Origin: a virus | IMG/VR virus record: IMGVR_UViG_3300012984_000022 | Location: 1 to 44,126 of that record | Direction: 5' to 3' (one strand) | Length of the DNA stretch: 44,126 nt | Shown: piece by piece, positions 42,217 to 43,497 of the stretch | Layout of the letters: the number at the start of each line of letters is the position of its first letter | How positions within the stretch are numbered: position 1 is the first letter of the stretch | Made by a program: the position numbers and the translations under genes | Notes under the pieces: generated by a model | Database searches by the model: none | Told to the model about the DNA's origin: nothing | What the model saw: only the letters and a program-made list of their open reading frames with translations

Positions 42217-42328
42217 TTCCACCCCCACGCAGGGGACCTGTTCACTTAAGATTAATCTTAGATTATTACTGAACAAGTCCGATTAGACTCTGAATGCCAG
42301 TTCATAGTCAACCTTCCTTGCAACAATA

Positions 42329-42356
42329 ACCATAGCTCATTCTCATTATGCCGCAA
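42329..42356 (-). promoter_or_regulatory. candidate promoter of the lysis/head operon
   Basis: TTGCGG (42351-42356), 16-nt spacer, TATGGT (42329-42334), between the ncRNA terminator and the holin. AACAAT before the -35 is a weak form of the repeated element. It would restart transcription for holin to scaffold after the terminator. Confidence 0.5.
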
Positions 42357-42376
42357 ATTGTTACTGTGTAACACAT

Positions 42377-42402
42377 AAAAAAAGACCCTCACAAGGAGGG
42401 TC
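42377..42402 (-). terminator. strong rho-independent terminator
   Basis: GACCCTC-CTTGT-GAGGGTC on the minus strand followed by seven T. It has no coding gene immediately before it; its source is the gene-free unit starting near 42992. Confidence 0.92.
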
Positions 42403-42992
42403 AAAGATACGCACTGGCTCTGGAAGATGAAGAGACTACGGTCGTGGGTACTTGTGAGTGCTTTGCCAGCTTCGCAGTGAATTGAAGAGCGGCAGGCCTA
42501 CCATTTGCAAAACACTCAAAACTACCGGCTGTCTGCTTCCAGCCCGTCAAACCGAATCGCCGCGATGGTTAATCGCCATTCCGGGGAAAGTTGTCAAACC
42601 CTGGCTATCTCATTCACCTCTCTCGCAAGCGGTAAGGAAGGTAAACCCGCCTGTTCAATTACCTGAAGTGCTCCGCATGGGAGTCATGCATCACAGCTAC
42701 TTCAGAGGCCCGCATGAGGTACGCGGTATTGTGGTGCGCAGTCTATTCGGCATGAAAACTCTGCGCAGATTCCTGTTAAAACCTAACCTAACCTAAAGTT
42801 AGGGGATGCCTTATTCACCACAGCGGAAAGAGCACTGCCGAGCCAGGGAAGTGTGCCTGGTCTCACCGGGATGCCGCCACATACTCAATGCTCTTACCTG
42901 TTGTGTGCCGGTTACGTTTATCCGGCGTCTTTCGACCGTTTAAAGACTAGGTTTTCCACAACCGTGCAGTCTGTGTACTAAGCATCGCCTTG
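42377..42992 (-). ncRNA. candidate large structured noncoding RNA (about 616 nt)
   Basis: Promoter at 42999-43027, terminator at 42377-42402, no convincing ORF between on either strand. Complementary segments (all + coordinates): 42507-42517 with 42456-42466 (11 bp, one G-U); 42536-42542 with 42420-42426 (7 bp), enclosing it; 42886-42895 with 42828-42837 (10 bp, one G-U); 42663-42669 with 42699-42705 (7 bp), with 42675-42679/42685-42689 inside; 42735-42741 with 42761-42767 (7 bp); 42927-42932 with 42942-42947 (6 bp) beside 42907-42911/42922-42926 (5 bp); 42787-42792 with 42798-42803 (6 bp); 42562-42566 with 42572-42576 (5 bp). Size and phage setting recall GOLLD and ROOL RNAs, but I see no proof of membership. 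Confidence 0.65.
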
Positions 42993-42998
42993 AATCTG

Positions 42999-43027
42999 AA
43001 TATAGCCGCATCCTTGCGACTGTGCAA
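42999..43027 (-). promoter_or_regulatory. promoter of the candidate ncRNA, repeated-element variant
   Basis: TTGCAC (43022-43027), 17-nt spacer, TATATT (42999-43004), preceded by AAAATAAATAAG and an A/T-rich block. Start of transcription would be about 42992. Confidence 0.75.
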
Positions 43028-43047
43028 CTTATTTATTTTATATTTCG

Positions 43048-43497
43048 CTATTTCACTTCAGCCTCTTTTGATACCGCCTCAAAACCGCCAGCGTCAGTGA
43101 CTTTCGCGAAGTACTTGCCTGGCTTGTCGGCCTTAATGGCATAGTCAGGCGTTGATACGCTGACCACCATTTGACCATCCTTGTACCACTGATACGCATA
43201 TGGCTCCTTGCCAGCTCGCGCCGACACACTGAGCAAGTCGCCAACAATTCCATCTGCTGGCTGACCGTCAATGTACACGTCGCCAGCGTCGGCCAGGTAA
43301 GGCACTTCATAAACCATACCGAAGTAGCCTGATGTAACAGCCAGGCCGGTTTTTTCCGCATACGGCATCTCGTTAATCGGGTCGCCAAGGATACCCTCAT
43401 CCGACACGTAAACCACGTCGTCTCCTGAATGGGCTACGCGCTTGTACTGCACGACGCGGCGCGCAGGGAGGTCTGTTACTGTAAAGAATCCACTCAT
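43048..43497 (-). CDS. Ig-like domain protein (149 aa), surface decoration candidate
   Basis: C-terminal Ig-like domain about 75-145 (PYAYQWYKDGQMVVSVSTPD, then a strand with KPGKYFAKVTDAGG). The N-terminal 70 residues form a separate beta-rich domain (VVQYKRVAHSGDDVVYVSDE). It shares PYAYQW with the protein at 38107. Its own transcription start is unclear; the divergent gap to the PAPS-reductase-like gene is 83 nt. Probably virion decoration. Confidence 0.7.
   Translation of the reverse strand: MSGFFTVTDLPARRVVQYKRVAHSGDDVVYVSDEGILGDPINEMPYAEKTGLAVTSGYFGMVYEVPYLADAGDVYIDGQPADGIVGDLLSVSARAGKEPYAYQWYKDGQMVVSVSTPDYAIKADKPGKYFAKVTDAGGFEAVSKEAEVK

Follow-up and report, generated by a model that had tools for sequence, protein, structure and literature searches.

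A predicted modular RNA unit with tRNA-like relatives beside the lysis genes of a phage

Introduction

What does a phage produce from a promoter-to-terminator interval of about 616 nt that lies next to its lysis genes and seems to hold no gene? The question is raised by IMG/VR virus record IMGVR_UViG_3300012984_000022, of which positions 1 to 44,126 were analysed; this entire stretch of 44,126 nucleotides is referred to here as the window. A first-pass annotation had interpreted the interval as a large ornate phage RNA, possibly of a new class, with GOLLD and ROOL as the known RNAs of comparable size. The analysis presented here addresses whether the unit is bounded and free of genes, whether its helices are maintained in homologs, and which known RNA systems it resembles.

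Boundaries and coding potential of the unit

The proposed RNA is encoded on the minus strand, and its features are collected in Table 1. It is flanked on one side by genes for a holin (PF16083) and Rz (PF03245), encoded on the minus strand like the unit itself, and on the other by a minus-strand gene for an Ig-like decoration protein, whose Ig match is below the cut-off. Beyond these, a plus-strand PAPS-reductase-domain gene (PF01507; 43581-44126) is opposed to the late genes and exits the window. The promoter pattern occurs exactly once in the 44-kb window, with two-mismatch look-alikes at chance level. Pattern scanning returned 8 promoter-like sites versus 3.4 in shuffles and 3 terminators versus 2.5, and bare matches of this kind would be weak evidence alone; the promoter and terminator of the window stand above chance because they are conserved in relatives. 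The promoter spacer, also conserved, contains an inverted repeat, GTCGCA-AGGA-TGCGGC (43018-43003, minus strand), a possible operator. In the annotation of Serratia phage Eta the promoter block is labelled a rho-independent terminator; the promoter reading is preferred here, since a T-run is missing and a short CGCA/TGCG hairpin is all that the block contains. The promoter-like site 3' of the terminator could serve the lysis genes, and probably does.

Table 1. Features predicted in and around the RNA unit (positions in the window)
Feature	Positions	Strand	Details
Promoter TTGCAC-17-TATATT	42999..43027	-	within a ~37-bp block kept in 5/5 syntenic phages
Proposed RNA unit, about 616 nt	42377..42992	-	predicted from sequence
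Possible remains of a first tRNA-like module	42900..42962	-	GUUGUGG 42962-42956; hairpin GCCGG-AUAAACGUAA-CCGGC 42926-42907; then ACACAAC
Frame hairpin 1	42819..42905	-	5' strand 42905-42886, payload 42885-42838, 3' strand 42837-42819; contains 10-bp helix 42895-42886/42837-42828
Hypervariable payload, 48 nt	42838..42885	-	near relatives: Cronobacter phage JK004, PHB10, L078, L095
P1-closed pseudoknotted domain	42728..42824	-	P1 42824-42816/42736-42728
Pseudoknot GGCAU/AUGCC	42810-42806/42753-42749	-	covarying in homologs
Inner hairpin GGAA/UUUC	42773-42770/42757-42754	-	4/4 pairs doubly changed
Helix CGCAG/CUGCG	42765-42761/42741-42737	-	
Conserved 3' module	42527..42727	-	common to L280, L277, L275
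3' module hairpins		-	CUGAAG..CUUCAG 42705-42663; GGCUG-GAAGCAGA-CAGCC 42544-42527
Frame hairpin 2, likewise with a slot for a payload	42447..42526	-	contains 11-bp helix 42517-42507/42466-42456
Intrinsic terminator GACCCTC-cttgt-GAGGGTC + T7	42377..42402	-	7-bp stem and loop 42402-42384; pattern and conservation
Promoter-like site GTTACA-16-CATAAT, 3' of terminator	42345..42372	-	sequence retained in L277, L280

The longest open reading frame overlapping the unit encodes 112 aa on the opposite strand from a GTG start, a length equalled in 5.8% of base shuffles, and it is retained in none of the relatives compared. The protein-coding reading was therefore rejected, and the earlier proposal of a gene-free promoter-to-terminator unit beside the lysis genes, with no open reading frame under conservation in between, held up. 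Folding energy on the minus strand gave a z of -2.3, with none of 20 shuffles as low, and on the plus strand a z of -1.0; this signal is modest and by itself would not settle the case for a structured RNA.

Screening against known families returned no Rfam match at gathering anywhere in the window. GOLLD and ROOL are absent from the Rfam matches to 42300-43100 even at E<=10, so that the suggested kinship with these two RNAs was not borne out, and STnc100 (RF02076) is likewise missing both at gathering in the window and at E<=10 in that interval. Permissive matches to RyhB, anti-hemB and toxic-sRNA are weak, all rest on the terminator hairpin, and were rejected; other matches at this permissive level are trivial. 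No tRNA was found in the window by ARAGORN or the Rfam tRNA model, and no tmRNA-like tag module was seen there. Two further candidates were set aside: lambda PreS, which is a different RNA located between ea10 and ral (PMC12197685), and VIPR vrRNA (PMC13142463), for which the window offers only GGTTAGGTTAGGTT (three GGY units), partly explained by its own hairpin CCUAAC/GUUAGG and treated as chance. Since the window copy failed every known-family membership tested, it is best regarded as belonging to a putative undescribed RNA class.

Module exchange among syntenic relatives

Syntenic relatives were located through the neighbouring decoration protein together with a DNA pattern, yielding a set comprising L280, L277, L275/L279, Serratia phage Eta (L001/L069) and the window. 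L280, L277 and L275 have exactly the promoter block of the window, ~37 bp with ATAAATAAGTTGCACAGTCGCA-GGATGCGGCTATATT, and Eta departs from it at a single base; the DNA immediately 3' of the block diverges in three of the four relatives (L277, L275 and Eta). The terminator is common to the window, L280, L277 and L275, and the distance from promoter to terminator ranges from 613 to 795 nt in the relatives. Between these limits the interior has been swapped piecewise while the promoter block stayed constant: the slot that holds the P1-closed domain in the window (42824-42728) carries a genuine tRNA-Gly(TCC) in L275 and almost nothing in L277, and the L275 unit begins with a tmRNA-like tag module, which the window lacks. 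The 3' module is shared by four sequences, in which most of its pairs are invariant, so its fold is only partly checked by covariation.

The 10-bp and 11-bp helices that had been picked out by the first-pass annotation both exist and covary in homologs. The second frame, which contains the latter, covaries among the window, L280, L277 and Eta, its strands being GAGUGUUUUGC/GCAAAGCACUC in the window, GAGUUUAUUG/CAGUAAGCUC in L277 and GAGUGUUGUUGU/ACAACAGCACUC in Eta.

Frame hairpins and their payloads

The recurrent element of the family is the frame, a hairpin of ~18 bp with the general form CACAACAGGTAAGAGCAYTG ... CAGTGCTCTTTCCGTTGTG, which encloses a hypervariable payload. Two features define membership of the superfamily, and both are found in the window: a frame hairpin with payload at 42905-42819, and a P1-closed domain with a covarying pseudoknot or kissing contact at 42824-42728. 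The first frame of the window consists of CACAACAGGTAAGAGCATTG, the 48-nt payload and CAGTGCTCTTTCCGCTGTG. The 139 frames of the fetched loci carry 91 different payloads, which are 34 to 170 nt long, between frame strands that are nearly constant. Variant frames retain their pairing through compensatory changes, as in AATGGCATTG/CAGTGCCATT of L043 and AATAGTATTG/CAGTACTATT of L008.

The payloads include T-arm-like hairpins, and one class contains a hammerhead type I core (RF00163; L123:7185-7231, E 0.0008), which resembles that ribozyme although its score falls below gathering and the core is absent from the window. Payloads of this class, with the core at the payload start, also occur in L012, L062, L079, L119 and L139. 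On a Salmonella phage-plasmid (L015:2077-2721), several frames stand in tandem between a Dam-methylase region and dnaB.

The tRNA-like domain and its pseudoknotted variant

Downstream of the frame lies a domain closed by a helix, P1. The commonest form consists of P1 (e.g. GUUGUGGUG/CACCACAAC), GAAU, the P2 hairpin GCGC-AGGCUGAU-GCGC, a variable stretch of about 28-130 nt and the P3 hairpin GCCGG-AGAUCAGCA-CCGGC. The P2 loop GCUGAU is complementary to the P3 loop AUCAGC, with GUCGA/UCGAC as the equivalent in L008. In an alignment of 42 sequences, 97.3% of cells are paired, 14 of 24 pairs are doubly changed, and double-change cells number 76 versus 14.9+-3.1 in shuffles; every slid control collapsed. 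P1 pairing was part of the selection of this alignment (A1), and P1 is hence overstated in it. An unbiased retest was performed on sites chosen by P2 and P3 only, leaving out P1s of the GUUGUGGU type; 31 of 46 P1s paired at >=7/8, compared with 3.9 (maximum 11) when the 3' strands were re-dealt.

This common domain looks like a tRNA, with P1 as the acceptor, P2 as the D-arm and P3 as the T-arm, but a long variable insert stands where a tRNA has its anticodon arm, the linkers have extra bases and a conserved CCA is missing. Some other domains carry canonical tRNA D- and T-arms; that of L090 scores 46.4 bits as a tRNA, the gathering cut-off being 29, and a tRNA-Gly (L275) and a tRNA-Arg (L027) lie directly 3' of a frame. 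P1 also lacks a G3-U70 pair and is not followed by a conserved CCA, which makes alanylation of the classical tmRNA kind unlikely. The frame and the domain are further linked in a three-strand arrangement, in which the frame's 3' strand ends in the 5' strand of P1; that P1 strand has two possible partners, the upstream frame strand and the downstream P1 strand. The upstream strand, taken as the partner, beats all 20 shuffles in 41 of 67 domains, sequence-unrelated cases included, an example being the perfect 18-bp helix of L168.

The domain of the window itself is closed by GCUGUGGUG/CACCACAAU and belongs to a pseudoknotted variant that also occurs at 6 other loci. Across these seven sequences, 99.4% of 161 cells are paired and double-change cells amount to 12 versus 3.7 in shuffles; the end pair of the pseudoknot appears as UA, AU, GC or UG in different phages. 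The covariation anticipated for aligned homologs was thus found in both the window domain and the common one. The tRNA-like model reaches only 12.1 bits on the window (E 0.0024; 801 bases, filters off), a match that is essentially P1 plus GAAU, and with the score so low the window copy appears to be recognised mainly through its own seven-sequence variant family. Near the 5' end of the unit, 42962-42900 is possibly the remnant of a further tRNA-like module, a suggestion supported by conservation of its hairpin block (42926-42907) in Sashavirus, Skatevirus, Magnus and Carvaje.

Tag modules in sister units

A module with a reading frame of 10 codons occurs at about 80 IMG/VR sites, often immediately 5' of a frame hairpin. 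The encoded peptides, such as ANDDVVLMAA, ANEEMYLAVA and ANDEQFLAVA, may be compared with the E. coli tmRNA tag, ANDENYALAA. The tag is exactly 10 codons long at 84 of 84 non-canonical sites, and near-identical copies differ by 34 synonymous versus 8 non-synonymous changes, so that 81% are synonymous versus 23% expected at random, the compared pairs being non-independent. Covariation in the module extends over the stop-codon hairpin, the hairpin that follows it and a pseudoknot (CCGA/UCGG, CCAG/CUGG, CCAA/UUGG), with 64 double-change cells versus 20.6. Rfam tmRNA models give only sub-threshold matches to the module (26.5 bits versus 47), and ARAGORN makes no call on it. It is possibly an undescribed phage tmRNA-like RNA; loci include L275:3680-3716, L006:2878-2920, L008, L020, L024 and about 80 others. 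Near the tag module in L349 and L287, the P1 helix GTTGTG/CACAAC is capped by a GNRA tetraloop (GUGA, GCGA), with no tRNA-like domain. The likeness to tmRNA lies in sister units, of which L275 shares the promoter and terminator of the window and carries the pseudoknotted 10-aa tag module; the difference is that no tRNA-like domain visibly encloses the tag of the phage modules, and that the window itself has none.

Distribution, the lambda copy and STnc100

At E<=1 the frame core matched 313 phage records, among them those of Salmonella, Klebsiella, Escherichia and Vibrio phages, N4-like phages, Ackermannviridae, prophages, phage-plasmids and lambda. In lambda (NC_001416 44787-44941; L018), the frame and the P1-closed domain lie between the late terminator tR' and the holin gene S; the copy overlaps the annotated orf-64. 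The family appears, on these matches, to recur in hundreds of proteobacterial phages. For the family of an Enterobacter genome, the common-domain model matched 13 of 149 genomes, for that of a Pseudomonas genome 18 of 148, and for that of an Oceanobacillus genome none of 146. Pattern matches in Oceanobacillus, Leeuwenhoekiella, Streptomyces and others were rejected as real occurrences, being exact lambda sequence and apparent lambda contamination; GTDB genomes of Pseudomonas, Oceanobacillus, Leeuwenhoekiella, Neobacillus, Shewanella, Chromatium and Streptomyces (L145, L152, L155-L159) carry the exact lambda frame with its flank.

One described family, STnc100/PasD, shows sequence evidence of relationship to one module of the array. 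The tRNA-like model (R1) matches the STnc100 copy of phage Magnus (20.3 bits, E 4.7e-6), the Rfam STnc100 model matches the related loci L006 and L103, and in L103 (657-1334, minus strand) three tandem STnc100-like copies, two of them above gathering, follow the frame. In L058, the Hfq-binding sRNA isrJ (2558-2634) ends at a terminator directly upstream of the frame and sits where lambda has its late leader (6S) RNA. Hfq RIL-seq revealed the Pas sRNAs, among them PasD, which is structurally homologous to STnc100 and maps close to the antitermination gene Q (PMC13192938). Many frames have this same neighbourhood. These prophage sRNAs are regarded as base-pairing sRNAs, not decoys (PMC13192938). 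The feature that they appear to have in common with the phage family is a domain of the form P1-GGUGAAU-hairpin ... hairpin-CACC. In contrast, STnc100 is a unit of ~200 nt, and the window has an array of ~616 nt that includes frames, slots for payloads and a domain of the pseudoknotted variant; the STnc100/PasD literature compared does not mention a tRNA-like character. STnc100/PasD appears to share a single domain with the array and might, if preferred, alternatively count as its founding kind.

Discussion

Taken together, the conservation, covariation and boundaries described above make it highly probable that the unit is a conserved, structured, modular one with its own promoter and terminator. 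The initial idea of a large ornate phage RNA is retained in that the predicted RNA is large, structured and of an undescribed family, but it does not have one fixed fold, being instead a mosaic of exchangeable modules that are in part tRNA-like. No earlier description of the modular family was found in the open-access literature searched. In the reading preferred here, a leftward RNA from about 42992 to 42377 would be made during infection and would fold, either whole or after trimming by tRNA- or dsRNA-processing enzymes, into tRNA-like pieces, which would occupy those factors of the host that work on tRNA or on the ribosome. The hypervariable payloads, the real tRNAs in slots and the tag modules of sister units may point to the translation machinery as the target. 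The full statement, that the unit is the gene for a ~616-nt RNA of a modular superfamily acting as a tRNA- or ribosome-side mimic or decoy, is favoured by a narrow measure; the mimic or decoy mechanism, judged as a separate element, is a tentative proposal and somewhat unlikely.

The main rival to this mechanism casts the unit as a precursor of Hfq-dependent base-pairing sRNAs like STnc100/PasD, in which payload loops would be the seeds, the frame and tRNA-like domains the scaffold and the U-tract terminator the Hfq site. Hypervariable payloads within fixed stems and a U7 terminator would suit such a precursor, as would the match of the tRNA-like model to the Magnus copy, the STnc100 tandem and isrJ adjoining frames, and the Hfq RIL-seq evidence on the Pas sRNAs together with the homology and location of PasD. 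Seeds, however, leave unexplained the complementarity of the P2 and P3 loops, the T-arm sequences and the real tRNAs in the slot, and the Rfam STnc100 model finds nothing in the window even when relaxed; the precursor reading is considered unlikely.

The complementary P2 and P3 loops could also pair between molecules, which introduces an alternative in which the unit is one large oligomeric RNA like GOLLD and ROOL, its kissing loops and pseudoknots being intermolecular contacts. GOLLD and ROOL, too, are large and structured, come from phages, have no established function and are commonly encoded close to phage tRNA genes. They form RNA-only nanocages (PMC12286853); ICP1 has an abundant RNA of ~800 nt beside its lysis cluster (PMC7567579), and size, phage origin and the nearby tRNA and lysis genes of relatives are comparable. 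Yet GOLLD and ROOL each have one conserved fold, and the present family is modular and exchangeable and has no Rfam match to them; variation in length and content among close relatives, with an entire domain missing in L277, is ill-suited to a fixed oligomer. The comparison serves as an analogy only, and oligomerisation is improbable. The same turnover could be attributed to a functionless recombination hotspot, a graveyard of tRNA and RNA cassettes held by homologous frames, where payloads are replaced within conserved frames and tRNAs, ribozyme-like elements and tag modules come and go. Against this stand compensatory changes in every helix family tested, the conserved dedicated promoter and terminator, and purifying selection on the tag frame, which leave the hotspot with a very small probability.

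Returning to the reading of a modular RNA directed at translation, its wider form is that phages of Proteobacteria carry an unnamed modular RNA superfamily whose frames display tRNA-like domains, tmRNA-like tag modules, ribozymes and hypervariable payloads, and that they exchange these RNA parts, much as they do protein domains, in order to seize or protect the translation machinery, a proposal given slightly less than an even chance. A conserved, covarying element is present in lambda and in hundreds of phages, without RNA annotation in the records searched, making the family directly testable in lambda and E. coli K-12. The modular system would unite STnc100/PasD sRNAs, orphan phage tRNAs and tmRNA-like tags, and, if the link to tRNA and the ribosome is true, it would be relevant to the ways in which phages overcome ribosome rescue and defences that cleave tRNA.
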